A stretch of DNA of 64,000 bases from Diplonema papillatum (Eukaryota > Euglenozoa > Diplonemea > Diplonemida > Diplonemidae), in contig JAPJBO010000264.1 of the NCBI GenBank assembly GCA_030068145.1, positions 124,001-188,000 of the forward strand, written 5' to 3'. Both the position numbers and the translations under genes were made by a program. Shown here one piece after another: positions 3,130 through 39,529 of this stretch. Within the stretch, counting starts at the first letter, position 1, and each line of letters opens with the position of its first letter. Below the pieces are notes generated by a model, which saw only the letters and a program-made list of their open reading frames with translations, ran no database searches and had not been told where the DNA came from.

Positions 3130-3448
3130 GCTTAGGGTGTTCTGAACCCTTCGAGCCGACAGATTTGGTCGCTGGAGGCTCCGGGTGTTCTGAACCCTTT
3201 GAGCTAGACAGCTAGTGGGTGTACCCTACCCAGTAAGGTTTTGGGGAGCCTGCGGGTCTGCCGCACTTGCCCAAATTTTGTTTGTGCGTGCCGGTTGATC
3301 GTTTTCCCACTTGTATTTACCCTGTGTGTATTCAGGTAAGGAATTCTGATCAACCACCAAAACACGCTGCCTACGTCTTTTTAGCCTGCACAATACATTG
3401 AAGGGCAACCCACAAGATTGTTAGTACTAAAAAGAGGGGAGAATCAGC

Positions 3449-3797
3449 ATGGACAACGACGGAGCGGAGAGCGACGACCCTTTGAAAATGATGCGGCAAC
3501 AAAGGGTGCCGATGATCGACAGCGGGCGAACATCAACACGCTCAAGCTGACGAACGCGCAGGTAGCCGCGATGCTCGTCCGCGCGAAGCTCGCCGGCGTC
3601 GATGCCGTCCTGCTGCTCGGGATCACGTTCGAAACGACCACCAGCTGCCTCCGCCTCGCCACGAGCCAGTGGGCCGCCGACACCGGCGTCGCGGTCTACT
3701 TCACGGCCGGGCTGCACCCGTGCTTCGCGAAGTTCTGGAGCGACGACACCGCTTCCTTCCTCACGAACGCCCTGTCCCACGAGCGCTGCGTTGCTGT
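3449..3797 (+). pseudogene. TatD N-terminal fragment, broken copy 2 (frameshifted)
   Basis: This is a near-identical second copy of the first exon start (ATG at 3449, MDNDGAESDDPLK). One G is missing in the 'gacagcgg(g)gcgaac' stretch near 3524, shifting the frame at the first metal-binding strand. Homology then continues through TAGLHPCFAKFW and stops at LSHERCVAV, exactly as in the copy at 875. It is joined on the left to a partial 609-bp repeat at 'actaaaaaga|ggggagaat'. It is clearly dead as a TatD enzyme. Confidence 0.75.
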
Positions 3798-4165
3798 ACG
3801 CAGGCTCACCCTCCTTATAGACGACGAATACAGCTCCAGGCACACACTGCTGAGGGATAGGAAGCGTCCTCATAAACCGTCATATAGCACCGGCAGGCAT
3901 TTCAATGCAGTTCCGACGGTAGAGAGAAGTGTCCTGGACAGAGGTACCCTATAGCTTTCCCAGAAAATCTGTGCAGCGATAGAGAGTTAAATATGAGAAG
4001 GTTCAAATTTACTGAGCTCTCTAGACTCGGAAAATGACACCGCCAAGACGTAGAATACTTCACACGAGCCTCCTGTGGCATTATGTTTACAAACACACAA
4101 TAACACCTCCTCCGAGAAAAGTTGATCACACACAACGAAACAAAAAAAAAGAGGGGAGAATCAGC
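3798..4165 (+). promoter_or_regulatory. Breakpoint sequence and upstream flank of the intact fusion gene
   Basis: The region repeats the breakpoint segment (about 3797-3900) and the conserved flank (about 3905-4165). The flank is retained before all complete or partial gene starts (630-874 and here), so the promoter and 5' leader of the TatD fusion probably lie in it. A frame also opens at ATG 4034, but homology among copies supports ATG 4166 as the protein start. No core promoter motif was recognised. Confidence 0.45.
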
Positions 4166-7069
4166 ATGGACAACGACGGAGCGGAGAGCGACGACCCTTT
4201 GAAAGTGATGCGGCAGCAAAGGGTGCCGATGATCGACAGCGGGGCGAACATCAACACGCTCAAGCTGACGAACGCGCAGGTAGCCGCGATGCTCGTCCGC
4301 GCGAAGCTCGCCGGCGTCGATGCCGTCCTGCTGCTCGGGATCACGTTCGAAACGACCACCAGCTGCCTCCGCCTCGCCACGAGCCAGTGGGCCGCCGACA
4401 CCGGCGTCGCGGTCTACTTCACGGCCGGGCTGCACCCGTGCTTCGCGAAGTTCTGGAGCGACGACACCGCTTCCTTCCTCACGAACGCCCTGTCCCACGA
4501 GCGCTGCGTGGCAGTCGGAGAGTGCGGCATAGATACCTTCGTCGCACCGAGCGAGGCGCAGCCCGGCAGCCCGGTCGACGTACAGGCCTGGGTGTTCCGC
4601 CGGCAGCTGCAGCTAGCGAGGCACGTCGGCCTGCCGGTGGTCGTCCACGAAAGAGGTCCCGGCGCGCAGGATGTAGTGCTCGCATGCCTGCGAGAGGAGG
4701 GATTCCCGGCCGCGAGAACCGTCGTGCACTGCGTGACGCGGGCTAGCGTCGGTGCCCTCGCCGTATACCTGCGGGGAGGCCACTACGTCTCCTTCTCCGG
4801 CGCGGTCTGCCAGCCGGAAAAGGGCCTCCCCCTGCGCGAGATGCTGCGGGAGGTCGCTCGGCACCCGGATCTCTCCGGTTTGCTGGCCGACCGCCTGCTC
4901 GTCGAAACCGACGCGCCGTTCTTCGGCCTCGCGCACGCGATCGACGGCTCGGCACCGTGGAGCAAGCACCCGCAGACCCCCGCAGATCCAGACCCAGAAG
5001 CGGCGGAGGGGGGGACCGCGGGCACGTTCGAGGACGTGCTCGAAACGGTCGCCCGGCTGAAAAAAAGCGAGCCTGCCGGGCTGCCGTGCACGCTCGCAGC
5101 ACTGGCGGCGTGCTTGGGAACCCCGTACCCGGCGCTGGCGCGCCGGGTTCACGCGAACACGGTGCGGTTCTTCGCCCTGCAGGACCGCTGCGTCTACCGG
5201 CCGCCGGAGGGATCGCAGTCGCACAAGCAAGCCGAATCCTCGCAGGGGCGCCCTGCCGAGGGAGGTGCACGGGGCGCCGGCGTAAATTCCGGCGCCGCGC
5301 CTCCAGGGGAAGGCCGCCGCGCCGGGGGCCGCCGGGACCGCCAGCCGCCCCCGGCTGCAACCGGCGGCCCCGGTAAGGCGCGGGGGCACGGTGACCCGCC
5401 TAAGCACTCGGCCCCCGGCGAATCTGCCTCGAATCGGCCGGTGCCCTCATCGGATTCTGGCGACTTGCAAGCAGCTGAAAGCACCTGCCCCCGAAAGGTG
5501 CGGTTGCACAACACGCTCAAGCACACTGCCGTCCCTGAATCCGCCCCGAAGGGTGGACGGACGAGCACTGCGGGCGCCTCCTCAGCTACCGAGGAAGAAC
5601 AAGACAGCGGGAACCCGGAACGGGCAACCGTGCGAGATATTGCCCCCTCAGCTGCCGAGGGAGTGCTAGGCAGCAGGAACTCGGAGTTGTCACCCGAACG
5701 GACAACCGCGCGAAAGACCACCTCCTCAGCTGCCGAGGACGCACCCGACAGCGGAAACCCGGAGTTTTCGCCCGGACGGGCATCCGATGGAAGGGCCGCC
5801 CTTTCTTGCCCAGCGGGTGGCGGAACACCCGCTGCAACGGGCGCGTCCGCAGCTCCCGGCGGAGAACAGGTCAAATCGGAATTGTCACCCGAACCGGCAC
5901 CCGCGCCAAAGGCCGCCTCCTCACTGGCTGCCGAGGACGCACACGACAGCGGGAACCCGGAGGTGTCGCCCGTACGGGCATCCAATGAAAGGGCCGCCCT
6001 TTCTTGCCGAACGGGTGGCCGAGCACCCGCTGCAACGGGCGCGTCCGCAGCTCCCGACGGGGAACAGGACGAATCGGAATCGTCGCCTGAACGGGCATCC
6101 GATGGAGGGACCGCCGTTTCGAGGCCAATGGGTGGCCGGACACCCCCGGAGCTTCCGCGGGACGCTGCTTGCCGCGGGGAGGGCGTCGCGGCGGGCGGTG
6201 TAGTCAAACCGGCGGCGGGGCGGCAGGGCGAGGTGCGTTTCATGCTGCCCGGCGTGCTCGCGAAGCTGTGCAAGAAGATGCGCGGGATCGGCCTCGACGC
6301 GGAGCTGTCGCCGCACAACCGGCTCGCCGACATCGTGAAGCGCGCGGAGGAGGACGACCGCGTGCTGCTGGTCCGCCACGCGAAGCCGCTGATCCAGCTG
6401 CTGACGGGCAAACCGGGGCACCCGCTGCGGTGGCTGCGGCTGGACTCGGACCAGTTCGCGCAGCAGATCCGGCAGGTCCTCGGCCACTTCGCCATCCAGC
6501 GAACGGAGAGCGACCTGCAAAAGCGCTGTACGCGGTGCAACGGGAGCCAGTGGCTCCTGCAGACCCGCGACGCGGTGCGGGACGAGATCAACGAGTCGAC
6601 GTACCGAACGCACGACCAGTTCTGGCGGTGCGCCCTGTGCAACAAGGTCACGTGGGAGGGCTGCATGTACCAAAAGACCCTCGAGCACTTCCGCGACCTG
6701 GCCAACCCCGACTCCGCTCGGCCCGCCGACGCGGGCGCCGATGCCGGCGGGACGAGCGACAACGACAGCAACAACGAAGCCGCCGGGGGGGCACCGCCTT
6801 CGGGCAGAAAAACACCCGGCGCCCGCTTGGCGGGCAAGCCGTCGGCGGCGCCGGGCCCGGCCCGCGAGGCTGAGGCGGACGATGCGGAAGACTCGTGCGA
6901 GAGGAAGCGGGGCGAGGTGCACGTCCTCATCCGGCACGAGCAGCACGGGATCGTCCTGATGGAGTCGCGATGGCGCACCGAGTACGTGTGGGTCATCCCC
7001 CGGTGCAACGTCGTCGAGCAGCTCGCGAACCATGCTCCACAGCAAGCGTTCGAGATCTTTGGACTTCAG
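4166..7069 (+). CDS. TatD nuclease - Mut7-C RNase fusion, copy A (first exon)
   Basis: About 968 codons from ATG 4166 to a CAG|GTGTG splice donor. Residues ~20-345 are a TatD-family metal-dependent nuclease: MIDSGANIN, TAGLHPCF, AVGECGID, VVVHERGPGAQD, VVHCVT and LLVETDAPFFGLAH match the family's metal and active-site motifs in order. Residues ~345-690 are low-complexity, with ~60-residue imperfect repeats (SSAAEDxxDSGNPExSP). Residues ~691-845 are a Mut7-C RNase domain (VLAKLCKKMRGIGLD, a QIRQVL helix) with its zinc ribbon, RCTRCNGSQW and WRCALCNKVTWEG. A conserved tail follows (GEVHVLIRH, VIPRCNVVEQLA). Without splicing the frame runs through a (CA)n array to 7363, giving polyhistidine-threonine, which argues that the donor is used. 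TatD enzymes are 3'-5' exonucleases/DNases; Mut7-C is predicted RNA-binding or nucleolytic. The downstream exons of this copy are not identified. Confidence 0.75.
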
Positions 7070-7075
7070 GTGTGC
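7070..7075 (+). other. Splice donor, copy A
   Basis: The sequence CAG|GTGTGC interrupts the frame in phase 0 at the point where copies A and B stop aligning. Copy B has CAG|GTGTGT at the equivalent place (19830), also phase 0. That match at a homologous position is the evidence for a real donor. Confidence 0.6.
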
Positions 7076-7106
7076 GTCCGGAACGAAAATAAAAGCACAG
7101 CCCGCT

Positions 7107-7828
<722 letters not shown>

Positions 7829-12100: not shown

Positions 12101-14944
12101 TACGTCGATGACGTGTATGCAATGCTGAAGACGTTTGCCGATTTAGAGGAGGCAGCCAGGCGGTCAGGAATGTTCGCCGGGCTGACCGGGATGAAAGTCT
12201 GCACGCAGAAAAAGTCGCATTTTTTCACGACGGCGTCGGACACCCCGCAAACCCTTGATTATGCGGAAAGCGACGGCACAGCAGTGAACAACGGGCGACA
12301 AGAAGGTATACAAAGGCGGGTGACATTCGACGTTCTCGGCGTGATGCTAACCACAGAGAAGGTGCCACCGGGGGAGGTAATTCGGCCGTCGAAACGGATT
12401 GTGGAGAGGAACTCCGAAGCTGAGCGGGTGCTGAAAAGGGCAGCTTGCCTCCCGCTGCCAGGCGAAGCGAAGGACCTCGTGGTCAGCATGTCAGCGGGAG
12501 CTAAACGGTACTACGGTGCAGCAGTATCGGGAATGACGAAGCGGGACAGCGTGCGCCTGAGAAGATTGTTCACGGAGGCGATGTGGACTGGGCCGCCGCG
12601 CCGAGCTCAAGAGGCGGTCCTACATATCCTACATCATGGGCACCGACTCGACCCGGTAGTTGTGCCGGCATACAGAAGAATCACCACCTGGGCAGTGCAA
12701 CTCAAGAAGTGGGAGTCCGCGAGATCTCTGTCACAGACAGCGTGGGAGCACAGCGACTCGCTTGCGACATTGCATGGACCTTTCGCCTTCTTCAAAGAAG
12801 CGCTAGACGGACTCGGGTGGCGATGGGTGGCACCAACCAGCATCGCCTACACGAACGAAGCCGGAGACGAGGTAGTGCATGATGCAGCGGCACAGGACAA
12901 CACGAAGCTTCTACAGCACGACCTGCGATACGCTTTGAGACTACGCGAAATGGCTCAGCTCGCGGCAAGGCGGGGAGGAGACTTCGGGGGAGTGCGGGAC
13001 GGGGTGGATTACCAGACAACCCGGCACCTGCTGGAGATGCACGATTCCCCACTCACCGCGTATCAAGCCGGCATGCTGAAATCAGTGATTGTGGGAGCCA
13101 CGCCGGCGGCTGGACGAACAGGGGCCGGTGAAGAAAGCTGTCTATACTGCAATACGGAGGAACGAGAAACGGTGGATCACCTTTTCTGGAGCTGCCCCGC
13201 TTGGGAGCACTTGCGCGCGAAGTACGAAGACATAAGGACCATGCAGGTAAACTGGCCCCCGTGTCTGCGCTTGTGCGGGATAGCCCCAGCCCCTCAGGTA
13301 GACGAAAGCACCTCCGTGCTGCCGGCAGAAAAGGAGAAAAGGCGGCATGTAGTGAAGCGACTGCAACTGTTCTTTGTCGAAGTGCTGAGGGAACGCCAGG
13401 GTGCCGACGGCCTGCTCGACAGGTCAGCCCGGCATCACAGGACAGAGAGCTACCCGCGAGGCTGGAGACCAACTGAACCCTGCCGACTCGCAGTCCCTTT
13501 CATTGCGCCATCCGCCGTGACAACGAAATGGAAATACGGACGGGAAATGTGGATGGCGTTCACCGACTGGCTGCGGCAGGTGAAATGGGCACCCCCGGGA
13601 CACGACGAGCTGGGCATCAGCTTCATCGAGTTAGCTGTAGAGTTCGAAATGCACACCGGACAGCGGCTCCCTGACCTCAAAAGCAGGTACTATACAGCAG
13701 TACCTCAAGCACAGACAGGCAAGGTGACAGCAGCTCGCACAACGCTAGCGGATGGGGAAATGGGCGACAGCAGGTTGCTTGTGTGCTTCGATGGTGGGGC
13801 GAGAGCGAACGGAACCGCCTTCGCCGTTGCTGGCGCAGGGGCGGTGATGTACCGAGACGGCGTCAAGGTGTCGGAGGTAATCCTGCCGCTGCCCACCGTG
13901 CGCAGCAATAACGTGGCAGAGTATGAAGCGGTGCTAGCGGGCCTGCATCTGCTGAACGAAGCGAACGATGCGGACGGCACGCAGTGTACGGTGCGGGGGG
14001 ACTCGGCACTGGTAGTGGGGCAGCTTTTGCGATGCCTGGCATGTTCCGAGGAGCTCAAGCCATACCAGACACGCGCTGCCAGAATGGTTTCTTCCCTGCA
14101 GCGACGGATGACAGTGCGCATCGAGCACGTCAAGCGCGAGAGGAACACGGACGCTGATGCCCTGAGTAACGCCGCCATGGACTTGGTGCAGCGCCAGCGG
14201 CCGACTCCTCGAAGGCAAGAGAAGATGCTAACCGACTTTCGCCGGTCCGCCTTGGGCAAAGCGCTTAGCCTCGTTGAGATGGGGAAGGCGTACAAGAAGG
14301 TGACGGGGCAGCCGTGGTTCTATGGCCATGAGTACTCCTCCACCGTGCTGACATCCCTGGGAGGGACGGTTGTACGGGGCGTCTCCCGACGAGCGCAGCT
14401 GTCAGAGGCGACAGAAGGCATCATCGTGAGGATACGCGAACACGCGCAGGCGGGAATCGCGGACGAACATGAGAGCAGCCCTTACCCGCCACACCTGAAG
14501 TGGGCCGCAACCTTCTTGCCAGAGGAGGCTTACCCGGCAGGATGGACACAGGGAAAACCCGACTGGAAAGGCAGAACGGAAGAGGCCGAAAGGGGTTCAA
14601 GCACTGACCCGCGCAAAGGTGCCCCCCCGTGCGAGGCCCCAGAAGGCGCTGCTAACACTTCCCGCCCTGGAGTGGTTTGCTCGCTCCACAAAAAGCCGCG
14701 ATGCAGTGAGTGCGTAAAAAAGCGTCTACCGGCGGAGACCTGCTGTCGCCTCAAGCAGCATCATCACGGATCGGATGGTCTAAGGCCCCGGATGCACTTC
14801 TGCACAGCTCACAGACTAGGACGTTGCGGCGATTGTGTGGCTGAAAACGAAGCATTAGCCAGCTGCTGCACAAAGCATCACGCAAACAGGAGAGCGAATG
14901 GAGGCCCCCACTCCCAGCCCGGGGGTGCATCGGCCGTCACCTAG
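9107..14944 (+). CDS. LINE polyprotein: OTU - APE endonuclease - RT - zinc knuckle - RNase H
   Basis: About 1,945 codons open in the frame of ORF1. OTU cysteine protease: KDGNCQF (catalytic Asp/Cys, 9332-9352), GHYGDHLTL, and YRPQHYDAL with the catalytic His (~9640-9668). APE-type endonuclease: LATANVGSIN, IVALQET, VMGDFNTP (~9790-10540). RT: LALDFQKCFDSVP, GIMQGCPLS and YVDD at 12101-12112. A zinc knuckle, CLYCNTEERETVDHLFWSC, near 13139. RNase H: CFDGGARANG, NVAEYEAV, RGDSALVV and NTDADALSN (13770-14190). The tail (14680-14900) has repeated CSLHKKPRCSECV / CTAHRLGRCGDCV Cys/His units. No ATG occurs in this frame until 10046, inside the endonuclease, so the OTU region can be made only by reading through the ORF1 TAG, or from a non-AUG start such as the GTG at 9152. 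Confidence 0.88.
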   Translation, partial: GAGRAGQELTPSKENVSTGAVRCANPTTGKRNRRGEEVKSVNQSTAVNQPTPAESGDTELDRAAAILRAKRIPVEKDGNCQFAALLRSSKLSLSATSLRQKVTWQLRHHPPSAFLPTDSSLSEYLSTVARDGHYGDHLTLQAAAEVLKATVWVLSTTNLAHLRCEGRAGNSSRIITVTYRPQHYDALHVPHETLQLLSTLGPEVSQLPLSEIAADSKPRLSARNTIAPPGRTIVLATANVGSINARSRTVATLPADIVALQETRAGPETKRTCGLFLAAYGWDCHWGEDVPVVVGANGIGQRVPGGAAVATRGMVASVSQPTTELERELARSTRVAHAVVATGNARMVLHVISVYAPVGREAAVVRDREKLIADVFEMAAGLGQVPIAVMGDFNTPAEESMSLTTACQSGWVDAASAAARAGSQDAPPTCWAAAAGSRIDMCFLNAVAAQTVVTVQTAKAGEYDIPTHCPIFVTLNIPAFTPPKRNHRIPAPFPRRVPVQTQEQKQSMLASALRRKRTESGADGALRNASEVAEAYLIDLHRENLEPGSTAYRGRAGGYRTREAHASARQACTTRGAMNWSTKQRDRVLGMLRSVVAEARQRLGSGQVGAMTVAERNARNALRRRNVEEFLPQLTHFGSSDELQELVAAVERLEGSQREAIAALKTQRSRLWKDRMQKAWSGPEKGDIYRFLAGQQGIPTAFLRRQDGTLTACPTEIDEMLRGPGAWGGIFQKYADQPEPEWEAFKSQYARYLPAPHAMECEPISAADVDAALKKMKKTSSPGLHGWRVHELRQLPSEILQLMADAMNAVESEGRWPEQLMHAIIHLLPKPESNGDPLSQRPISITPVLYRIWAAVRAKAALAWMDEIAPSGLHGCRKEHGTDDLVWHLAALIEEAHLTGEPLFGLALDFQKCFDSVPIEVAFKLAEELGFNEVVLRTLRAAYTNMRRHFRVGATVGEGFVPTNGIMQGCPLSVILINVIISVWMRHVADIEAAIPLSYVDDVYAMLKTFADLEEAARRSGMFAGLTGMKVCTQKKSHFFTTASDTPQTLDYAESDGTAVNNGRQEGIQRRVTFDVLGVMLTTEKVPPGEVIRPSKRIVERNSEAERVLKRAACLPLPGEAKDLVVSMSAGAKRYYGAAVSGMTKRDSVRLRRLFTEAMWTGPPRRAQEAVLHILHHGHRLDPVVVPAYRRITTWAVQLKKWESARSLSQTAWEHSDSLATLHGPFAFFKEALDGLGWRWVAPTSIAYTNEAGDEVVHDAAAQDNTKLLQHDLRYALRLREMAQLAARRGGDFGGVRDGVDYQTTRHLLEMHDSPLTAYQAGMLKSVIVGATPAAGRTGAGEESCLYCNTEERETVDHLFWSCPAWEHLRAKYEDIRTMQVNWPPCLRLCGIAPAPQVDESTSVLPAEKEKRRHVVKRLQLFFVEVLRERQGADGLLDRSARHHRTESYPRGWRPTEPCRLAVPFIAPSAVTTKWKYGREMWMAFTDWLRQVKWAPPGHDELGISFIELAVEFEMHTGQRLPDLKSRYYTAVPQAQTGKVTAARTTLADGEMGDSRLLVCFDGGARANGTAFAVAGAGAVMYRDGVKVSEVILPLPTVRSNNVAEYEAVLAGLHLLNEANDADGTQCTVRGDSALVVGQLLRCLACSEELKPYQTRAARMVSSLQRRMTVRIEHVKRERNTDADALSNAAMDLVQRQRPTPRRQEKMLTDFRRSALGKALSLVEMGKAYKKVTGQPWFYGHEYSSTVLTSLGGTVVRGVSRRAQLSEATEGIIVRIREHAQAGIADEHESSPYPPHLKWAATFLPEEAYPAGWTQGKPDWKGRTEEAERGSSTDPRKGAPPCEAPEGAANTSRPGVVCSLHKKPRCSECVKKRLPAETCCRLKQHHHGSDGLRPRMHFCTAHRLGRCGDCVAENEALASCCTKHHANRRANGGPHSQPGGASAVT

Positions 14945-15001: not shown

Positions 15002-15110
<109 letters not shown>

Positions 15111-15773: not shown

Positions 15774-18700
15774 ATGACAGAGGGCGAAGGGCGGCAGCCG
15801 TCGCGGGGCGAATACGAGGCGGCGCGGCGCGATGCGGGGCTGCCGCGGCGGGCGTTCCGGACGCCCGTGATCGACAGCGGGGCGAACGTCAACGGGGCGA
15901 AGTTCTCGGAGGCGGAAATTAACGCGATGCTCGGGCGGGCGAAGGTCGCCGGGCTTGATACAATCGTGCTTCTCGGAGTTTCCGCGGAGGCGACGGTCAG
16001 CTGCCTCCGGCTGGCGAACAGTGAGTGGGCCGCCAAGCACGGCGTCGCGCTGTACTTCACCGCCGGGATCCACCCTTGCGACGCGAAATCGTGGATGGAG
16101 GAAGCCCACTCCGGGCTCTCGCACGCGGTCTCGAACAGCCGCTGCGTGGCCATCGGCGAGTGCGGGATCGACACTCACGTGCCGGGCGCGAAGAACACGC
16201 CGCTCGAAGTGCAGCGGTGGGTGTTCGCGCGGCACGTCCGCCTCGCGAAGGCGAAGAGCCTCCCGCTGCTCATCCACGAGCGCGGCCCGGGGGCGCAGGA
16301 CGCCGTGTTTTCGGTGCTGCAGGCAGAGGACTTCCCCGCGTCGCGGTGCGTCGTGCACTGCGTCACGAACCCGTCCGTCGAGGCCCTGCGCCGGTACGTG
16401 GAAGCCGGGTTCTACGTCTCGTTCTCCGGCGCGATCTGCCAGCCGGAGCGCGGGCTGGCCCTGCGGCGGCTGCTGCACGCGTTCGCGGGCGCCGGCCCCG
16501 CGGTGCTTGGGGGCAGGGACGCGCGCCGGCAGTCGCCCGCCGCGGCCCTCGTCCGGCAGCTGCTCGTCGAGACCGACACACCGTACTTCGGCCTCGCCCA
16601 TCCGGCAGACGGGTCGCACCCGTGGGCATCCGACGAGCCTGGCGAACCAGAGGCCGGGGCGGAGCCAGTCGGAAGTTCGAGTGACGCCGTCCGGCAGGGG
16701 GTCGGTGCTCTAGGGAACGATCTGCAGGGAGAACCCCGAAGGGACACTCTGCGTGGAGCAGAGCAAGGGGACACTCTGCAGGGAGAAGAGCGAAGGAACG
16801 CTCCGCAGGGAGAAAAACAAAGAGACACTCTGCGTGGAGAAGAGCAAGAGGACATTCTGCATGGAGAAGATCGGAGGAACACTCTGCAGGGAGAAAAACG
16901 AAGTGACGCTCTGCATGGAGAAGAGCAAGAGGACGTTCTGCATGGAGAAGACCGAGGGAACACTCTGCGGGAAGAAGACCGAGGGGACACCCCGCAAGGA
17001 GAAACCCCGGAAGAAGAAAAGGCCCGCGCAGATGCCGCGGCGCGCGGGCAAGACGGCCCGCTGCCGGCGGGCATCGACGGGAAGCCGCGGAAGCCGCGGC
17101 ACGGGTCCGCGAAAAGGCGAGCCGGGAAGCACCACGCCGGCCGGCGCGGCGAGCCCGCGCCCCCGAGCGACCCCCCCGCCACCTTCGCCGGGGTGCTGCG
17201 CCACGTGGCCTCCCGGAAGCACAGCGAGCCGGCCGTGGCGCCGTGCGTGCTTGCCGTCGCGGCCGCGTGCCTCGGCGTCGACGCCGACGCCCTTGCGGCG
17301 CAGGTGTACAAGAACACGGTCCGATTCTTCTCGCTGCGCAAGCGCGCGGGCAAGGTGTACGCGCCGGCGGCGGCGCAGCCCCGCCCCCCGGACAAGCCGG
17401 GGCCCGCCGCCGCGCAGGGAGCAACCGCGCCGCAAGCCGACGCCGCACTGCGCAGTGGTGACACGGCTGCGCCGCAGCAAGCGGCGGCGAAAAGTGCGCC
17501 GCTTGCTGCGGACAGCGAACCGCCGTGCCGCGCGGGAGCAACCGCGCCGCAAGCCGAAGCCGCACTGCGCAGCGGTGACGCGGCTGCGCCGCAGCAAGCG
17601 GCGGCAAAAAGCGCGCCGCTTGATGCGAACGGCATCGAACAGAGCCACGCGGGAGCAACCGCGCCGCAAGCCGACGCCGCACAGCGCGACGGTGACGCGG
17701 CTGCGCCGCAGCAAACAGCATCGAAAGTCGTGCCGCTTGCTGCGGACGGCCTCGAACCGTGCCGCGCGGGAGCAACCGCGCCGCAAGCCGAAGCCGCACA
17801 GCGCAGCGGTGACGCGGCTGCGCCGCAGCAAGCAGCAGCGAAAAGCGCGCCGCTTGATGAAAACAGCATCGAACCGAGCCACGCGGGAGCAACCGCGCCG
17901 CAAGCCGACGCCGCACAGCGCAGCGGCGACGCTGTCGCGCCGCAGCAATCAGCGGCGAAAAGCGCACCGCTTGATGCGGACAGGGTGGAAATGTGCCACG
18001 GAGGAGCCGCGCCGCAAGCGGAAGTCGAACAGCGCAGCGGTGATGCTGCTTTACCGCGGCAAGCAGCAGCAAACGGCTTGCCGCGTGAATCAGGCAGAGT
18101 GGAAACACACAACGCGGACGCGCGTCGCGGTGACGTCGAAGAGCGCAGCGGTGGCGCTGCTGCACAGCAACCAGCAGCAGCAAAAGGTTTGCCGCTTGAT
18201 GCGGCCACAGCGGTAACGTGCAAAGCGGCCGCGCAGCACGGCGAACCCGCGCCGCAAGCTGTTGCCGAACAGCGCAGCGGGGATGCCGTTGCACCGCGGC
18301 AAGCGGCAGCGAAAAGCTCGCCAATTGTTTCGAACGGAGCGGAAACGGAGTGCAAAGCGGCCGCGCTGCTGCAAGCCCCGGTTCCGGTTCCGGCCGTATC
18401 CGTCAAGGCTGAGGATACGGTGGGGCGCGAGCCGGACGTGACGGATACAAGAGGAGCGGCGGCGCCACAACGCGAGACCACGGCCAGCCTGTCGCAAGCA
18501 CCAACCGGCCCACCGCTGGCGGCGCCACCCGGGGAAACCCCAGTTCCGGCAGCCGCCGTCTCCGTCGAGGCGGACGCCGCCCGGAGGAAGGACGCAGACG
18601 CAACAGCAGCAGCGGCACCCCGCCTCGAAAACACGGCCGCCCCGGGCGAAAACGGGACGGCAGACGCCGGCCCCGCGCCGGCTTCCGGGGGCGCGCTGGC

Positions 18701-19829
18701 CGCGCTCCCCGCCCAGGCCTCCGGGCACCCGGTACCCGCCTCCGGGTCGCAGCCTGCCGGAGAGGGAGCTGGCAGTAGCGGGACCCCCGCGGCTGACGGG
18801 GACACGGGGTCCTCTGGGGAGGATGCCGCCGGAACCGGGTCGAACCGGCTGTTCATCGTCCCGAACGCGCTCGAAAAGCTGTGCCGGAAGATGCGCGGGA
18901 TTGGGCTCGACACGGTGCTCGCGCCGGACAACCGGATGAAGGACGTCCTGCGGCAGGCGGAGGACGAGCGGCGGATCCTGCTCTTCCGCCACGCGAAGGC
19001 GCTGACCCGGGAGAAGGCCGCTTTACGCGTGCCGGACGCGGTGCGGTGCGTGCAGTTGACCTCGGACCTCAGCGGGGACCAGATCCGGCAGGTGCTCACC
19101 GACTTCAAGATCACGCGGCACGAGCGGCACATCCAGAAGCGGTGCGTCATGTGCAACGCGAACCAGTGGGTCTACCAGGACCGGGAGGCCGTGAAGGGCG
19201 AAGTCGAGCCGTCCACCTTGGAGTGCCACGCGCACTACTGGAGGTGCGGCGGGTGCAAGAAGATCTTCTGGGAAGGCGCGATGTACCGCAAGGCGAAGGC
19301 CCACTTCCGCGAACTCGTCTCAATGAAGCCGGCGCCGGCCGAACCGCCTGTTCCCACCCCGACCCCCGAAGAGTCGGCCCCCACGCCAACTTACGGCGCC
19401 CCGCTGTTTTTCGTGGGGAACAAGCACCCGGCGCAGCCGGCCCCCGCCGCCGCCGCGCCGGTGGCCGCTGCTGTTGTTGCCCCGCCCGCGCACGGCGGGT
19501 ACAACGTGTCGAAGCGGCCGATGAAGTGCGTGTTCCAAAAAGAGCCCGGGGGCTGCCGCCACGGCGAGAAGTGCACGTTCCGGCACGTCTCCGCCTCCCC
19601 GCAGCCGCACAGCGACCCGCCGAAGCGGGAGGGAGGCGGCGACGCGGCGCCCGACGCGCCGAACAGGAAGAAAAGCGAGGTCCACGTCATCCTCCGCCAC
19701 AACCTCGAGGGAATCGTCCTCACCGAGGCCAAGACCCGCGCCGGGTCGGCCTGGAGCATCCCGCGCTGCAACGTGGCGGAGCAGCTCGCCAGCTTAGACG
19801 GTGCCACTTCCCTGCAACCGAGCCAGCAG
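15774..19829 (+). CDS. TatD nuclease - Mut7-C - CCCH finger fusion, copy B (first exon)
   Basis: About 1,352 codons. I chose ATG 15774 because homology to copy A begins soon after; an upstream ATG at 15483 only adds low-complexity sequence. TatD motifs: VIDSGANVN, TAGIHPCD, AIGECGID, LLIHERGPGAQD, VVHCVT, LLVETDTPYFGLAH. A Glu-rich repeat block (16720-17030, LHGEEQED-like units) is inserted before the C-terminal TatD helices (17180-17350). Then come about eight 39-residue repeats (GATAPQADA...AAPQQAAAKSAPL; 17420-18330). Mut7-C: ALEKLCRKMRGIGLD, QIRQVLTDF, zinc ribbon RCVMCNANQW / WRCGGCKKIFWEG (18850-19320). A C-x8-C-x5-C-x3-H finger (CVFQKEPGGCRHGEKCTFRH, ~19527-19586) is missing from copy A. 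The tail SEVHVILRH / SIPRCNVAEQLA matches copy A. The exon probably ends at the phase-0 donor at 19830. Confidence 0.8.
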
Positions 19830-20377
19830 GTGTGTCGTTCGTCCCTGAGCTATCCAGCAACCAAGAAGCTCGCCCGCACGCACTTCGTGCGGCGCCGCTC
19901 CGCTGCCGGCTTAGAATCGCAGGGTGACCGGCACACCCCCTTCTCCACCGTCCGCAACGGAGGAGCAAAAAGATATACACTGGAAAAAGTCACACACAAA
20001 AACGACAAAAAAAAAAGTAAAAGAACTTCAAAACAAACAAAGGGGTTTGGAGAGGTTTCTCAAGCATTGTGTGAAATAGACTCAAAATGCTGCAAACCCG
20101 TCCAAACTCGAAACCAATCGCACCAGTATCACCAACCCCCACATTGAAGGGGGATAGTGTATTGCGCCCCGTTGTCTCCGCGGGATATCTTCTGTCCCAC
20201 CGCCCAAGCGCCACGTAGCCGAACACTCGTCAGTATCCGTTTGGGGTCCTGCGACCACTTGACTTCTGCTCATTCGTATGAACAATTGTAAGAACGAGCG
20301 CGCTGGCAGCGCGTAAGGCTAGAGCTATCACGATCACTCACTACTAAAGCTAATACTCCACCCCCGGCGCGTACCAG
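19830..20377 (+). other. Predicted intron joining the nuclease exon to the TUTase exon
   Basis: The donor is CAG|GTGTGT at 19830, phase 0. Near the 3' end a branch-like TACTAA lies at about 20342-20347, then a C-rich tract and acceptors at ..TACCAG|CAA (exon from 20378) and ..CGCACAG|GCG (exon from 20393), both phase 0 for the downstream frame. The nuclease frame left unspliced would only reach a stop near 20147 through A-rich, non-coding-looking sequence. The TUTase frame is open back to 20354 with coding-like residues (LNKKQKARELLQRLQAT) but no ATG before 20501. Together these favour splicing over two separate genes. Confidence 0.5.
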
Positions 20378-23300
20378 CAAACACACGCACAGGCGCCGCC
20401 CGATCTTGCGCAGCCGGCGCCGGCGACGGAGGGCATCCGGCAGCAGCGGCTGAACAAGAAGCAGAAGGCGCGTGAGCTGCTCCAGCGCCTGCAGGCGACG
20501 ATGAACGGCGCGCGGAGCGTGCCGGGAGACGACGATGGCGGCGACGAGGGTGACGCCTCCTCGTCCTCGCCGGCGGACGCGGTGGGGACCGCGCGGCGGG
20601 CGCACTTCCGGCTGACGCCCGAGGCGTGGAAGCCGCTGCAGATCGCGGCGGTGCAGTCGTTCGTCGCGCACGAGTTCGGGCTCGACGTGCACCCGGACGA
20701 CGTCTACCCGGCGTGCGACACCGCCACCGGCGACGAGCTCGAATTCGGCCGCCGGAAGTACTTCTTCGTGACCCTCCGCGACAGCGACTCGACGCCCCCC
20801 GGAACCGACGGTGCCCGCCCTCCCATCTCCGGCAGCGCCACCTCGGCGTACTTCTGGCTGCGCTCGCGCGCCCCGTGGCGGTTCGTCGCGAGCTTGCCCG
20901 CGGCGTCGCAGATCATCAAGCAGTACGGGCCTGGCTCCGCCGGGAAGGGCGACGTCGTCGGCGCGTCCGCGCTCAAGTACCTCCGGACGGCCGGCACCGC
21001 GGCCCTCTCGCAGAAGATGGTCGCGGCCCGCGTCGGCGCTGCGAAGCCGGCGTCCGGCAAAGCCACCGCCCGGCAGGAAGGCGCGGGCGCCCCGGCCGCG
21101 GCGTCGCTCCGGCGGACCAACGCCGAAAAAAAGCGCGCGCCCGCCGTTCCCGCCGCGCCGGCGGCCGAGAAGCAGCAAGGAGAAGGGCCGCGGGCGCAGC
21201 AGCTGGGCGGCGGGGGGCAGTGCGAAGCGCAAAAAACGCACAAGACCCCGGAAGGAGAGGATGCAGAAGGGCAACGCGAACACGCACGTGCTCCGTGCGC
21301 AGAGGAATCGTCCAATTCGCAGGGCTGCGAAACGCAAGAGCACGAGACGCCAGGAGAGGATGCAGACGTGCAACAAGAACACGCACATGCTCCGTGCACA
21401 GAGAAAGCGTCCACGACGCGTGACGACCCGCAGCAGGACTGCGACAAGGAGAAGCAGAAGACTTCCGAGGGTGCAGAAGTGCAACAAGAAGACGCACATG
21501 TTCCGTGTACAGAGAAAGTGTCTAAGACGCGTGCTGAAACGCAGAGCGACTGCGAAAAGCAAAAGCACAAGACGTCAGATGGTGCAGAAGAACTAGAACA
21601 CGCACACCCTTCGTCAATGAAGCACACGACATCAGAGAGTGCGGAAGCGCAACAAGAACACGCACACCCTCCGTCAATGAAGCACAAGATGCCAGATATT
21701 GCAGACTTGCAACAAGAACACGCACACGCCGAGAAAGCGTCAAAGGCGCGCAAGCCGAAGCCGCCGGCCCCCCCCCGCACCCTCCAGCGCAGCGTCCTGC
21801 CCTTCACCGTCAGCGAGCTGAGGGACGACCAAGCCCTCGCCGCCGGCGAGTACCGCAGCACCGTCGCAGCCGCCTTCGGGAAGCTGTCGGCAAACGGCGT
21901 GCGCCGGGCGACCGAGGACAGGGCGCTGTGGGAGGTGCGCGACGCCCAGCGCCGCTGCGTGCCGGCTATCGAGGCCAAGGCCTCCAAAAAAGAGCCCGGC
22001 CGGCTGCCCGGCGAGGGCCACGCCGTGCGCTTGGCGTTCGAAGAGGCCGTCGGCGGCTTTTTTAAGACGTGCTACAGCGAGGAACGGGTGGCCTTCGTCG
22101 CTGCGCAGGCGCGCACGGTGCAGCGCACGATCGCGAAGGCGCTCGCCGCCGCCGGCATGATCTGCGAGTGCCAGGGGCGGGGCGACCCACGGGTTTGCCC
22201 GCACCTCGCGCGGAGGGGGGTTGCCGCCACCCCCGACGACACTGCGTACCACGGGCTGGTTCGCGCGGTCCACGTGTTCGGGAGCTCGTCGTCAGGCACT
22301 GCGGACCCCGACCAATTCGACGTCGATGTCTGCGTCCGCATGCACCACGCGACCTGGCGGCTGCCGCCACGCATCGATGGGCCAACCATGTGCGGTGGGG
22401 CCTTCCGGGTCCACCGCAGCGCCGCTGAAACCCCGACGCCGGAACACGCGGTTGTTGGGACGGAAACGCCGCCGCCCGTCAACGGAACCCCAGGGGTCCA
22501 GGGCAGCGCCGCCGAAAGCCACAAAAAAGGCGGAGTCCGCGAAGAACACGAGGTGCACGACCCACCATCGCCGGCACGCGTTGCCGTTGGGACGGAAGCG
22601 CCGGCCATCACGTGCGGTGAAACCCCAGGGGTCCAGGGCAGCGCCGCCGAAACCTCCGGGGAAGGAAGAATCGGCAGAGATGAATCCGGAGCGCACGACG
22701 CGCCGACGCCGGAACACGTTGTCGTTGGGAAGGAAACGCCGCCACGCGTCAACGGAACCCCAGGGGTCCAGGGCAGCGCCGCCGAAACCTCCGGGGAAGG
22801 AAGAATCGGCAGAGATGAATCCGGAGCGCACGACGCGCCGACGCCGGAACACGTTGTCGCTGGGAAGGAAACGCCGCCACGCGTCAACGGAACCCCAGGG
22901 GTCCAGGGCAGCGCCGCCGAAAGCCCCGGGGAAGGCGGGGTCTGCGAAGAATACGGTGTGCACGACGCGCCGACGCCCGAGCTCGTCGGGAAGGAAAAGC
23001 GGCTGCTCCTGTGCCTGCTGGCCCGGCTCGAAGGAGAGGCCGGGTTCGACGACCTGCAAGCCGTGCTGCCGGCGCGCGTTCCGGTGGTGAAGGCGCGGCT
23101 GCGCGGCGTGCCCGTCGACGTCACCACGCGCTTCCTCGGCTGCGTCAACACGCGCCTCTTCCGCGAGTACTTTGCCGCGTCGGCGGAGCTCGCCCAGGCG
23201 TCGGTGCTCGCGAAGCGTTGGTCCACGTGGGCCGGCGTGCGCACCGGCGAAATCGGCTTTTTCTCGGCGTACACCGTGCAGCTGCTCGTCATCCACGCCC

Positions 23301-23662
23301 TCGTCCGCCGCGGCCACGTGCGGCACATCCCGCTCGGCCGCCCGTACCTTGAGTCCGTCGCGGGCTCGCCGCCGGGCGAAAACGTCGGCGAGATCCCGGA
23401 AACATACGGCGGGCCGCCGGCGGCGCTGCGGCCGCGAGAGGGGCGCGGCGGGGTGGCGCCGCGCGTGTTCGAGCTGTTCGAGTGCTTTTTGCGGTTTTTC
23501 GGGTGGGAGTTCGACTGGCGGCGCGAGGTGGTGTGCGTCGCTGTCGGCGGCCCCGTCTTCAAGGAGCAGGTGGGCTGGACCGACGCCGCGGCGGCGGTGC
23601 GCGACCCGTTCGAAGCAGAGCTCAACCTCACGCGCAAGACTGCCGCCAAAAGGCTGGATGAT
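20378..23662 (+). CDS. Terminal nucleotidyltransferase (TUTase / non-canonical poly(A) polymerase) exon
   Basis: About 1,095 codons; if it is a gene of its own, the first ATG is 20501. An unrecognised globular region (20600-21000) precedes imperfect Gln/Glu/His-rich repeats (21230-21740). The Pol beta-type core follows: AVHVFGSSSSG (22270-22300) with the catalytic pair FDVDV (Asp codons 22318 and 22324), then an inserted block of about four 45-residue repeats (22420-22975). The third Asp is in GVPVDVTTRF (Asp at 23116), followed by CVNTRLFREYF and the FFSAYTVQLLVIHAL helix typical of Cid1/TUTase enzymes. The PAP-associated domain is at 23455-23640 (FELFECFLRFFGWEFD ... VRDPFEAELNLTRKT). Such enzymes add uridines or adenines to RNA 3' ends. 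The exon probably ends at GAT|GTATGT (23663), phase 0. Confidence 0.82.
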
Positions 23663-24335
23663 GTATGTCTCGTCGGAGGGGGAGCATTCAACACCACTTA
23701 TCATATCACCGTGTTTTTTATGGACGCTGCAAGTGATTTCACACGTTATGTTAACAACATGTCACACAGATCACGTAACGTTATGTTTTTTTTTTTTTCA
23801 CTGTATCATCACGTGATCGCATGTCGTTTTATAGTATTAGGTTGTGTTACGTGTTATACCGTATTTCCGGGCAAAACCTGTAGGGGCGGGAGGGGCGCGG
23901 CGGGGTGGCGCCGCGCGTGTTCGAGCTGTTCGAGTGCTTTTTTTGCGGTTTTTCGGGTGGGAGTTCGACTGGCGGCGCGAGGTGGTGTGCGTCGCGGCCG
24001 GCGGCCCCGTCCTCAAGGAGCAGGCGGGCTGGACCGACGCCGCGGCGGCGGTGCGCGACCCGTTCGAAGCAGAGCTCAACCTTACGCGCAAGACTGCCGC
24101 CAAAAGGCTGGATGATGTATGTCTCGTCGGAGGGGGGGATGCAAGGTGCTCAACGTACCGTGTTTCGGTCCCTGTCCTTGAAGCCACAGACACATATGTT
24201 TATGGACGCTACAAGTGATTTCACATGTTACGTTAATAACATGTGACATTGTCACATATATCACGTGAGCTTATGTTTTTTTCACTGCATCATGATGTGA
24301 CCGCATGTCGTTTTACATGTCGCGTTACGACACCA
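23436..24335 (+). repeat. 452-bp tandem duplication of the TUTase exon end and intron start
   Basis: The segment from 'ggggcgcggcggggtggcgcc' through the GTATGT donor and the following AT-rich intron occurs at about 23436-23865 and again at about 23888-24335, offset by 452 bp. The second copy repeats the PAP-associated coding stretch, including the codons for DPFEAELNLTRKT, with small indels. One extra T run shifts its frame (ctttttttgcgg against ctttttgcgg). The second copy also keeps the GTATGT donor. Confidence 0.8.
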
Positions 24336-25188
24336 TAATTGGATTAATGTTGGACTGGACTGAAGCTGGAACGGGTTAACGGACCGGGCAAGCGAGTCTC
24401 GGAACAGGACTCAAAACCGTGACCCAGGTAGTGACTGCCGACCACGACGGCTTGCACCAGGAGTTTGGAACAGCTAGTCAGGCCAAGCATTGCACAGAGA
24501 GAGCTTGCCACATCCTCGGGTGGATGTGCCGCATACTCAGCCGTTGCGCGGGGCCAAAAACCCCGTGCAGCTAACACCGCAAGATTAAAACAGAAGTCTT
24601 GAGCCGACTGCCGGATGGAGAAGCTGACAGCCTCCCACGCTCTATCCGTCCCCCAAAGGATCCCGCCCCACCCACCCTTCGGAGAGGAGCCACAGGACCC
24701 AAAAGCAGCGTGTCGGAACCTCAAAGCCGACTGGTGAAAGTGACAAGTGGGCTATACTTCGATTCAGACGTTGCCCACTCAAAGCCCTGAACCTAAACAC
24801 GTACACCCACACACGCACAGATACGCCGTCGCTTCCGGCTGTCGCACGCAGCCCTGCTTGACGGCACACTCGCCAAGATTTACCGTTAAAACGGACGATT
24901 GACAACGATGCGACCGCCCAACCCTGCGATCCACGCAGCCGACATCATCCCGTTCATGGGGAAGATCTAACTGGCAGCTTCGTTGCGGCTTTATCGCGGC
25001 GTGTCGCTCAAGAGAGTCAGTTGTCATTCCCACCGTTTGCCCGCGCTTGACCTGATCTCAGCGTTGCCGCTGCAGATGGAACAGTCTGTTCCACTTGGGA
25101 CGCACACAGCGAAGTGGCGAAAACGAACGACTCCAGAGCAGCAGCAATGTGGCGAACATCGTCGAAAACCTTGAGGTTCGTTCGGTTG
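24336..25188. other. Unassigned intronic sequence
   Basis: No coding frame, tRNA or known repeat was recognised. It lies within the predicted intron between the TUTase exon and the Cys-rich last exon. Confidence 0.4.
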
Positions 25189-25252
25189 TGGTTGATCCTG
25201 CTAGTTCCATACTAATATGCCTGTTTCAAGGCCTTGCAAGTCTCAGAATAAA
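25189..25252 (+). pseudogene. Fragment resembling the 5' end of small-subunit rRNA
   Basis: The stretch begins 'tggttgatcctgctagt', close to the near-universal start of eukaryotic 18S rRNA (tggttgatcctgccagt). It continues with 'aatatgcctgtttcaagg' and 'tgcaagtctcagaat'. The 'tttcaagg' and 'ctcagaat' spellings recall euglenozoan rather than animal or fungal 18S. Similarity fades after about 65 bp, so this is at most a decayed rDNA fragment. The comparison is from memory. Confidence 0.4.
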
Positions 25253-25422
25253 TGGAGTGATAAAGTGCTTTTCCCAACCTCTGACCATCAAGCAAGTATG
25301 GGTCTTGCTTGACACGCCAAACTTGATGGCCGTAAGCTTGAAGGTTTACACCCAATTAGCCAACTGCCACACTAGCCCATTCAAGGCGTTGCTGATGAGG
25401 GGTATCTCTTCTTTTTTTACAG

Positions 25423-25638
25423 GCCATCGTTCAAGCTTGCTCCGACCACTGCACCCTCTGCCGACACTCGCTAGCCGTCGACGCTCATGACGGCAGCCCC
25501 ATCCTGAAGTGCAAATACTGCCGACGCGTCACTGCTGCTGTGTGCGCTCGGATTGGCGCCGCTCAAGTGGCCACCTTATGTCACTCGTTCGTTTGTAAAG
25601 ATTGCTCCGTTCTTCTCCCTGACTTGTTCCCGGATTAG
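25423..25638 (+). CDS. Cys-rich zinc-binding last exon, candidate 3' end of the TUTase gene
   Basis: A strong acceptor (cttctttttttacag, ending 25422) opens a 71-codon phase-0 frame ending in TAG at 25636. The peptide has CSDHCTLC, CKYC and CHSFVCKDC, three Cys pairs spaced like a double zinc-binding fold; I do not recognise the family. The TUTase exon ends in phase 0 at 23662, so the two would join in frame over an intron of about 1.76 kb that contains the 452-bp duplication. The stop lies only 9 bp before the (TAC)n array. It could instead belong to another transcript. Confidence 0.4.
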   Translation, partial: AIVQACSDHCTLCRHSLAVDAHDGSPILKCKYCRRVTAAVCARIGAAQVATLCHSFVCKDCSVLLPDLFPD

Positions 25639-25647
25639 GATGACACA

Positions 25648-26102
<455 letters not shown>

Positions 26103-26140: not shown

Positions 26141-27232
26141 ATGAGCACACCACCCGAGCCTACAACAGGAGACTTCGGGTGGGCTGAGGTGGGTCTTCTG
26201 AGACTGAATTCTTCTTCTTCTATGCCTAATGATCCCCGCGCGTCCGTTTTTGACAAGCAGTCCACATCGGGCTACCAGGGATGGACGCTGCCGAAGGAGT
26301 TCTCTCTGTCGTTCACAGAGTTAGTAGGAAAGCCGTTTCCGAGGCGGTACATTGTCCTCTCGGACTTGAGCGGGTGGATCATGCACTTCTTCGGCGGTCT
26401 ACCGGAGGAGCAGCAACTGCTTTCCGCGAAGGCCGTGGTTCGGGATCTCCTGGACGTGGACGAAGGGAGTGACTTGGACGGGAAAGTGGAGGCGCTAGAA
26501 TCGTGGAAGGTGGCAGCCCTGCTCGCCGATGCGTCGCTGGTTAACCCGCGCGTTCTGAAGCTTGCGATGAAAGCTAGTTCGAAGTGGAAAGCCGGCGCAC
26601 CGGATCTCAGGCGCCCGGACGGGGACGACGATCAAGATGTACCCCGCCCACCTACGCCGCCGCGGACTCCTCCGATTTCTCCTAGGCGGGCTGCCGTCGA
26701 CGATGGCGCAGCTCTGCGATTGGAGCTCGGGGCCCTTCGCCAGGCGGTGGCGGAGCTGCAGGGCGTAAAGAAGGGCGCACCTTCGGAGTCGACTCTTCGT
26801 TCGTTCGTGGCTGAGGCAAAGAACGTGTTGGACTGGAAGGGACAGATGGCCGTTGACCCGGAGACGCTAGTCCGGGACCTTGACGTGGCGTATGTTGCTG
26901 GGAGGCGGCATTTGCCAGGTGGGGACCTGCTCCACGACGTCTTTACCAGGCTCAAGTGCTGGTTGATTTCGGCGGCGACGACAGACGGCTGGGAAAGCTG
27001 CCCCGAACAGGTGAGGCTCGGCAACGACCTTCTCCTTGACCTCCGTGCACAGCGCGTCTACGTCGAGGAGGGGATAAGCCGAAAGTCCGTCATGCGTGGT
27101 CTCCAGCAATTGACGGATGATCCGTTCGACAAGGTCGTGGCCGGGATTCGAGGACAACGGGAAAAGACGGAGCGTCCGAGGCGGCAGTACAAGAAGTCGC
27201 AGGGAAACGGAAAGGCCGGAGGAAAACATTGA
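26141..27232 (+). CDS. Gag-like protein of retrotransposon 1
   Basis: About 363 codons from ATG 26141; a second ATG is at 26222. The frame extends upstream through the TAC array as polythreonine, which I treat as artefact. The protein is mixed alpha-helical (FSLSFTELVGKPFPRRYIVL, LEALESWKVAALLADASL-type helices), has a Pro-rich segment (PRPPTPPRTPPISPRR), and ends in a basic Gly/Lys tail (RRQYKKSQGNGKAGGKH). No CCHC knuckle is present. It is called Gag from its position and basic tail only. It terminates at TGA 27230-27232, with the recombinase frame continuing in the same phase. Confidence 0.6.
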   Translation: MSTPPEPTTGDFGWAEVGLLRLNSSSSMPNDPRASVFDKQSTSGYQGWTLPKEFSLSFTELVGKPFPRRYIVLSDLSGWIMHFFGGLPEEQQLLSAKAVVRDLLDVDEGSDLDGKVEALESWKVAALLADASLVNPRVLKLAMKASSKWKAGAPDLRRPDGDDDQDVPRPPTPPRTPPISPRRAAVDDGAALRLELGALRQAVAELQGVKKGAPSESTLRSFVAEAKNVLDWKGQMAVDPETLVRDLDVAYVAGRRHLPGGDLLHDVFTRLKCWLISAATTDGWESCPEQVRLGNDLLLDLRAQRVYVEEGISRKSVMRGLQQLTDDPFDKVVAGIRGQREKTERPRRQYKKSQGNGKAGGKH

Positions 27233-28456: not shown

Positions 28457-28587
28457 CCAGCTTCTTGCGGTCGGATGTCTTCGAGAAGTCGGGCGGGCAT
28501 TCGATCACCAGACGAGGCGGCTCGACACGGCTCCCTCGGACGAAGGAAGAGAAGGAGGCTCCCCTTCACGCAGCATCCATCGACTGT

Positions 28588-30339: not shown

Positions 30340-30715
<376 letters not shown>

Positions 30716-39013: not shown

Positions 39014-39529
39014 GTATGCGCCGCGCCGGCTTTCTTCGTTTTAACCGCACGCAATGCGTGACGGTACGCTGAACCGGACCCTCTGATCCTACGAACAATT
39101 CAAAACCACGTCCATCTGGGTTGAGGGGTGTGTGTGGCTGTAAACGGAACCGCCCCAAGTAGAGAAGTAGGAACCATGGATCCTGATCAATTTAAATCCA
39201 CGTCCAGGATCTGCGTTCAGGACGTGGAGAGGGGAGTAGCGCCGCCAAGGGGAAAAAATCTTGTTCTTCCGGTCGAACCCGGACAGGAATAAGCCCAGCA
39301 CGTACCTGGCGCGCCTGACCCAGCGAGCTACGAGGGTCTCAACAAAATATCAAGTTCCCAATTACTTCCAACTTTCTCCTTTACCTTGCATCAAATAGGT
39401 GTCACGGCAAGTTTTGGCAGCCGCTGCACACAGTGCATGCTAATCCATGTGGTTCATGTACTTAAAAAAACTCAATGCTTAACAAAAATTTGACGTGGGC
39501 GGTCTGAATGACACCTCAACCACAATATG

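Follow-up and report, generated by a model that had tools for sequence, protein, structure and literature searches.

A candidate Diplonema papillatum gene that would join TatD, Mut7-C and terminal nucleotidyltransferase domains in one chain

Organization of the locus

The DNA analysed here (the window: 64,000 nucleotides, positions 124,001 to 188,000 of contig JAPJBO010000264.1, assembly GCA_030068145.1, from the diplonemid Diplonema papillatum) carries on its forward strand a reading frame with a TatD nuclease domain and a Mut7-C domain, followed downstream by a frame that appears to encode a terminal nucleotidyltransferase of the terminal uridylyltransferase (TUTase, here also TUT) type. We infer splice junctions that would place both frames in a single messenger RNA (mRNA), and we favour, with some reserve, the interpretation that positions 15774-23662, perhaps extending to 25638, form a single spliced gene whose product, some 2,500 residues long, acts on RNA 3′ ends. 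Throughout, exon 1B is the TatD/Mut7-C exon of this candidate gene, exon 1A (paralogue A) is its paralogue elsewhere in the window, and P0001 is a homologous protein from the European Nucleotide Archive (ENA). The features of the candidate gene are as follows.

15774..19829, + strand: exon 1B (inferred); TatD, repeat linker, Mut7-C, CCCH and the start of a conserved region; ends at CAG/GTGTGT, phase 0
15870..16595, + strand: TatD domain, Group I; Pfam 127.8 bits; GAN motif and metal-binding motifs
16155-16172 (GECGID), 16266-16286 (LLIHERG), 16350-16370 (VVHCVTN) and 16566-16583 (VETDTP), + strand: TatD metal-binding motifs, placed by alignment
16714..17003, + strand: 27/81-bp coding minisatellite, linker
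17409..18234, + strand: 117/111-bp coding minisatellite, Ala/Gln-rich linker
18852..19301, + strand: Mut7-C domain with Cys4 zinc site (CVMCN 19143, CGGC 19245); Pfam 87.6 bits
19527..19586, + strand: CCCH pattern C-x8-C-x5-C-x3-H; spacing exact, score below the Pfam cut-off
19668..19829, + strand: exon 1 tail (KKSEVHVILRH...PRCNVAEQLA...QQ), conserved in paralogue A; in P0001 it lies between Mut7-C and the TUT half
19830..20377, + strand: intron 1 (inferred); 548 bp, GT-AG, phase 0; alternative acceptor 20393
20378..23662, + strand: exon 2 (inferred); conserved block and Cid1-type terminal nucleotidyltransferase
20702..20995, + strand: block conserved with P0001, 39% over 98 columns
22274..22330, + strand: nucleotidyltransferase palm VFGSSSSGTADPDQFDVDV, with the first two catalytic Asp
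22433..22977, + strand: 135-bp coding minisatellite, an insert between the second and third catalytic Asp
23066..23650, + strand: rest of the palm and PAP_assoc region; third Asp, VPVDVT 23108; DPFEAELN 23603
23663..25422, + strand: intron 2 (inferred, less sure); GTATGT...TTCTTTTTTTACAG, phase 0
23886..24136, + strand: repeat of the exon 2 3′ end inside intron 2; 251 bp, 97% identical, with its own GTATGT at 24117
25423..25638, + strand: possible exon 3, a Cys-rich tail; 71 residues and a stop

Third codon positions are GC-rich as far as about 19.85 kb in the TatD frame and again, in the TUT frame, from about 20.36 kb onwards; the repeat-coded linkers depart from this, with low values.

A homologue with both halves in one chain

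The initial annotation had recommended looking for proteins that join TatD or Mut7-C to a nucleotidyltransferase, and one was found. Three protein searches were made, each of which scored only the 7982-7992 candidates that shared most words with the query. The first used a composite of the window exons with one linker removed and drew its words from TatD and Mut7-C; of the 7983 candidates scored, P0001 (1603 residues, from a 1.75-Mb contig) alone matched at E ≤ 0.001. This protein holds TatD (135.9 bits), Mut7-C (77.8 bits) and PAP_assoc (34.1 bits) in one chain, and the joined window protein is colinear with it in five blocks (TatD, 36%; Mut7-C, 47%; the post-junction block, 39%; the palm, 63% over 19 residues; and TUT, 40%). 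Hence the two proteins share TatD, Mut7-C, a conserved middle block and a Cid1-type transferase in the same order; P0001 differs in having no CCCH pattern, no Cys-rich tail and shorter linkers.

Used as a query, P0001 recovered, apart from itself, only P0002 among the candidates scored; P0002 is a protein from a Rhynchopus humris transcriptome. Because P0002 is 90% identical to P0001 over 420 columns, TatD included, the source of P0001 is very probably a diplonemid near Rhynchopus. Within residues 1-627 of P0002, some 600 residues ahead of TatD are unmatched in P0001; they could be a real N-terminus or a product of chimeric assembly.

The junction between the TatD/Mut7-C and TUT frames

The TatD frame had been described as ending at a splice donor. 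The donor is in place (CAG/GTGTGT, first intron base 19830, phase 0), and we infer that coding ends at it. The frame itself stays open for another 105 codons, to a TGA at 20145; this continuation (19830-20145), taken whole, scores as non-coding (codon score -54.7) and shows no similarity to P0001 (865 of 2000 shuffles scored as high). On the other side of the putative intron, 548 bp after the donor, the phase-0 AG acceptor noted earlier is present at 20378, and the TUT frame does look coding ahead of its ATG at 20501, with a log-likelihood of +24.0 over 20378-20500 against -5.5 and -9.5 in the other frames. A second acceptor at 20393 is also in phase 0 and equally good, and the best-scoring start of the TUT frame is 20390. 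Agreement in phase was considered as evidence of fusion and set aside as weak, because an in-frame combination arises in 68 of the 168 GT/AG pairs tried and because 20393 serves as well as 20378.

The fusion is raised above chance by the comparison with P0001 and with paralogue A. Aligned to the part of P0001 that follows Mut7-C, the last 54 residues of exon 1 score 49, against 27.4 ± 4.2 for shuffled sequences (1 of 2000 as high; 4 of 2000 when the whole of P0001 is used). Homology to P0001 is found up to the intron and again past it, and therefore fits one protein. The second comparison concerns the following feature.

4166..7069, + strand: exon 1A; TatD (138.2 bits), Mut7-C (81.0 bits) and exon 1 tail; ends at CAG/GTGTGC, phase 0

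From the ATG at 4166, exon 1A runs for 968 codons without a stop, and none lies at the donor (the open reading frame, or ORF, spans 4025-7360). Its tail scores as coding in frame (+24.8) and resembles both the exon 1B tail (58% over 43 residues) and P0001, with 0 of 2000 shuffles as high in either case. The two exons have the 8-mer CAGGTGTG in common, which occurs at two sites on the + strand of the window, 19830 and 7070 (0.92 expected from dinucleotide content), and at one on the - strand. Unlike the 8-mer itself, the 13-14 codons upstream of it have diverged between the paralogues. The sequences past the two donors (7070 and 19830) are not alike when compared with each other (257 of 2000 shuffles as high). 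The earlier suggestion that TatD, Mut7-C and a TUTase share one chain is thus supported by P0001 and by a donor common to the paralogous exon.

Several points weigh against this conclusion. No transcript spanning the junction 19829/20378 underlies the proposed fusion. By maximum likelihood, coding ends at 19958, past the donor, and not at 19829; with another background the end moves to 19790, before the donor, so that codon use leaves the place of the donor unsettled. No similarity to P0001 is seen in the part of exon 2 ahead of its ATG, where 638 of 2000 shuffles score as high; this part sits where linkers vary in length. The 8-mer common to the paralogues could be retained coding sequence (Gln-Val-Cys) instead of a donor, although the codons just ahead of it have diverged. 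P0001 may be either an uninterrupted ORF or an annotated spliced coding sequence. A milder objection is that P0002, a transcript product of R. humris, stops soon after TatD, with no Mut7-C or TUT, whether by truncation or genuinely. The third protein search (query A1) gave no match among the candidates it scored; it could not return P0001, because 1603 residues lie outside the length range searched. Finally, a structure was predicted for residues 890-1603 of P0001 together with exon 2 of the window and a portion of the exon 1 tail; its mean predicted local distance difference test score (pLDDT) was only 38.2, and the model was not used.

It is worth considering in this light that the two frames might be neighbouring genes of a polycistronic cluster. 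The TatD-Mut7-C gene would then end between 19.83 and 20.15 kb, the TUTase gene would have its own spliced-leader acceptor near 20378 and begin at ATG 20501, and the fusion would be confined to the lineage of P0001. Genes are clustered in Diplonema and, extrapolating from validated genes, essentially all mRNAs are reported to bear the spliced leader (PMC10161547); the stop at 20145, the coding end at 19958, the dissimilar stretch ahead of the ATG and the early end of P0002 would all suit this arrangement. Against it stand a TUT frame that is coding ahead of any ATG, an exon 1 tail homologous to the very sequence of P0001 that leads into its TUT half, the dissimilarity between P0001 and the continuation 19830-20145, and the same phase-0 CAGGTGTG end, again with no stop, in paralogue A. 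We regard two separate genes as very unlikely, and a single gene comprising exon 1B and the TUT exon as highly probable.

Domains and predicted activities

The TatD/Mut7-C frame starts at ATG 15774. Its TatD domain exceeds the TatD_DNase Pfam cut-off of 27, as do those of exon 1A and P0001 (127.8, 138.2 and 135.9 bits, respectively). The IDSGAN, GECGID, LLIHERG and VVHC segments align to two solved TatD proteins, and VETDTP was aligned to P0001. By the published motif definition and residue roles (PMC4176340, PMC10085689) this is a Group I domain, in which (G/A)xN replaces HxH and the metal-binding E, H, H, E and D are kept; the metal-binding motifs are likewise kept in exon 1A and P0001. Escherichia coli TatD is described as a Mg-dependent 3′-5′ exonuclease that acts on single-stranded DNA and RNA (PMC4176340).

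The Mut7-C domain (PF01927; 87.6 bits against a cut-off of 23.3) was compared with P0001 and three bacterial members, the latter being three of four plasmid hits, with the fourth left out and the Thermomicrobium protein taken without its first 70 residues. The Cys4 zinc site (CxxC...CxxC) aligns in all five sequences. The acidic residues seen in all three bacterial proteins (FxxD, a loop D and T(R/Q)D) are replaced in exon 1B (FIVPN 18852, LLFRHAK 18978) and in P0001, and, judged by motif, in exon 1A as well (FMLPG, LLVRHAK). Because of these replacements in both window copies and in P0001, an active RNase was rejected for this domain and the label "Mut7-C RNase domain" of the initial annotation was withdrawn. 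Whether the acidic residues form a nuclease site is itself doubtful, given that MUT7-C is described as only distantly related to PIN domains (PMC11347159); in the same source, MUT-7/EXD3 is reported to bind and degrade RNA with the help of MUT7-C. Two Mut7-C sequences (query A4) searched against solved structures gave 0 matches at E up to 10.

The CCCH finger that had been proposed downstream keeps its exact spacing, but its 15.5 bits fall short of the Pfam cut-off (24.6), and it is confined to exon 1B: the pattern was looked for in P0001 and paralogue A and found in neither. For the conserved region that crosses the junction, a Nudix fold guessed from the first strand and a W-x-(I/L)-P motif was discarded for want of Pfam support; two trimmed pieces of that region gave no Pfam match at E up to 10.

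The exon 2 frame reads as a Cid1/TUTase-type terminal nucleotidyltransferase with three catalytic Asp. PAP_assoc exceeds its Pfam cut-off of 22.6 in both the window (27.0 bits) and P0001 (34.1 bits), and the palm models fall below theirs (NTP_transf_2, 18.9 against 21; MTPAP-like, 24.0 against 27). The G-S...D-x-D signature and the third Asp nonetheless align with TUT7, other such enzymes and P0001. Matches among solved structures include RNA uridylyltransferase 4 (2ikf), URT1, terminal uridylyltransferases, TUT4/TUT7, GLD2 and others; these are TUTases, yet GLD2 is a poly(A) polymerase, and a preference for U or A is not readable from the sequence.

These features suggest a way in which the protein could work. 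Splicing would join the exon 1 donor at 19830 to the acceptor at 20378 or 20393 and, less surely, the exon 2 donor at 23663 to 25423. In the product, the Mut7-C module would hold single-stranded RNA, TatD would take off 3′ nucleotides, and the nucleotidyltransferase would lengthen the trimmed end with U or A, the RNA never being released; the protein would be a one-chain counterpart of complexes such as the trypanosome mitochondrial processome, with its DSS1 exonuclease and RET1 TUTase. We consider this trim-and-retail mechanism on RNA somewhat better than an even prospect. Of the earlier proposal that trimming is coupled to re-tailing, the one-chain domain order is supported and the activities are predictions; our inclination towards coupling is a modest one.

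TatD enzymes are known mostly as DNases, which weighs against an RNA substrate. A single gene with a repair-like role on DNA can be imagined, in which TatD acts as a 3′-5′ DNA exonuclease or an apurinic/apyrimidinic (AP) endonuclease and the transferase serves as a tether or a template-free end-filler. AP endonuclease and single-stranded DNA exonuclease activities are reported for TatD proteins (PMC10085689), and a diplonemid mitoproteome lists two TatD-related DNases under DNA metabolism (PMC12699882). The transferase, in contrast, matches enzymes that tail RNA (TUT7, TUT4, GLD2, URT1 and others), and an RNA-binding role is reported for MUT7-C (PMC11347159), so that a role on DNA seems to us quite unlikely. 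It is also conceivable that the gene is fused but that only one half works, with the TatD or the TUT domain vestigial or regulatory. The loss of the Mut7-C acidic residues indicates that domain change does happen in this protein, and the palm lies under its Pfam cut-offs; on the other hand, the TatD metal-binding motifs are intact in both window copies and in P0001, and neither the window TUT nor P0001 has lost the palm Asp positions. This possibility, too, we judge unlikely, although a shade less so than a DNA substrate.

No reports of a TatD/Mut7-C or a Mut7-C/TUTase combination were found in the open-access literature; TatD together with uridylyltransferase returned only bacterial or antibacterial work there, judged by title and the start of the abstract. 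Our view, drawn from that literature, is that the one-chain TatD/Mut7-C/TUTase combination is undescribed.

The 3′ end of the candidate gene

A Cys-rich last exon had also been proposed, and here the claim holds in part. The GTATGT donor at 23663, the phase-0 frame at 25423-25638 and its stop are all present; a coding signal is not. Scored with the codon use of this gene, the frame is the best of three yet still negative (-15.5), which counts against it and is the reason for our lower trust in exon 3. It has no Pfam match above cut-off, and a counterpart looked for in P0001 was not found. At least three CxxC together with eight Cys occur in 22 of 8312 overlapping open 71-residue windows, and at least nine Cys in 147 of the 8312; the Cys richness of 25423-25638 is unusual, not decisive. 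An exon 3 at this position is possible only. A perfect (TAC)n array begins nine bases past the stop of the Cys-rich frame.

Exon 1A and neighbouring elements

Exons 1A and 1B are 52% identical in TatD and 47% in Mut7-C, and the duplication is therefore old. A full TUT exon for exon 1A was not found in the window, where the only other TUT-like sequence is the 251-bp repeat in intron 2. Exon 1A may use the TUT exon as an alternative head, may have an exon of its own that was not found, or may have lost its partner. One can speculate that the tandem exons 1A and 1B are alternative heads on one nucleotidyltransferase exon, possibly serving mitochondrial U-appendage; we think this doubtful, but if true, one locus would yield two trim-and-tail enzymes, each a single chain and each with its own RNA-trimming head.

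Two recent tandem repeats accompany the 5′ end of exon 1A.

3429..3797, + strand: repeat of the exon 1A 5′ end (4146-4515), 98.6% identical
607-1224: further copy of the 5′ end, 90.4% identical to 3891-4515

Diplonema papillatum is reported to have tandem repeats both of gene 5′ ends and, within first introns, of first-exon 3′ ends (PMC10161547). The window is similar, except that its repeated 3′ end is that of exon 2 and not of the first exon.

Between exons 1A and 1B, positions 9107-14944 hold an uninterrupted 1945-residue retroelement ORF (endonuclease, reverse transcriptase and RNase H). Close to the start of this ORF is an OTU-like protease domain (23.6 bits against a cut-off of 23.3), and (AC)n tracts lie at 7110-7277, 7652-7825 and 15005-15104. 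Perfect (TAC)n arrays at 25648-26100 (151 units) and 30341-30715 (125 units) flank a retroelement-like stretch with a weak RT_RNaseH match, below cut-off, in 27121-30123. Further downstream on the + strand are an ion channel ORF (36684-39041; Ion_trans_2, 45.8 bits) and an ORF with a cyclic-nucleotide-binding domain (60890-61693; 55.9 bits).

Comparison with known systems

It is informative to set the candidate protein beside enzymes that share one or another of its parts. The E. coli TatD, also of Group I, has the GxN and metal-binding motifs seen in the window, in a single-domain protein of about 30 kDa (PMC4176340). Its H127A and H152A mutants are reported to retain nuclease activity, so not every TatD ligand is essential (PMC4176340). 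MUT-7/EXD3 resembles the window protein in combining a 3′-5′ exoribonuclease, putative in the window, with MUT7-C in one chain; it differs in that its nuclease is of the DEDD (RNase D-like) type and not TatD and, as described, in having no nucleotidyltransferase (PMC11347159).

Within the transferase half, the palm Asp residues and the PAP_assoc region align with those of 2ikf, which we take to be of Trypanosoma brucei origin, and DPFEAELN of the window lies over DPYELNLN. Cid1 has a His at the position matching DPFEAELN; both the window protein and 2ikf are without it. Neither 2ikf nor the PDB terminal uridylyltransferases 4/7 carry TatD or Mut7-C. In the window enzyme, unlike in these, a repeat insert separates the second Asp from the third; in RET2, a domain of 107 residues interrupts the N-terminal domain (PMC5485530).

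One polypeptide that combined nuclease, RNA-binding and terminal nucleotidyltransferase modules, and that was kept in two related lineages (probably both diplonemid), would make the coupling directly testable with one recombinant protein. In Diplonema papillatum, gene tagging and affinity purification are reported to be established (PMC12699882). The protein would also offer a concrete candidate for an open question, that of the enzymes behind the maturation and uridylation of diplonemid RNA ends. The nearest functional parallel is the trypanosome mitochondrial processome (MPsome), whose DSS1 belongs to another nuclease family than TatD. Diplonemid mitochondria are reported to join many transcript pieces and to append Us, and the primary candidates published for U-appendage are DIPPA_04001 and DIPPA_34584 (PMC12699882). 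For the window gene, the part in this process raised by the initial annotation is conceivable only. In trypanosome mitochondria, 3′ trimming and re-tailing are coupled through a multi-protein complex, the MPsome, in which DSS1 and RET1 link 3′-5′ trimming to 3′ uridylation (PMC6329795). The parallel is functional only: the MPsome is built from separate polypeptides with further structural subunits (PMC6329795), unlike the window protein, which would bring trimming and tailing together in one chain.

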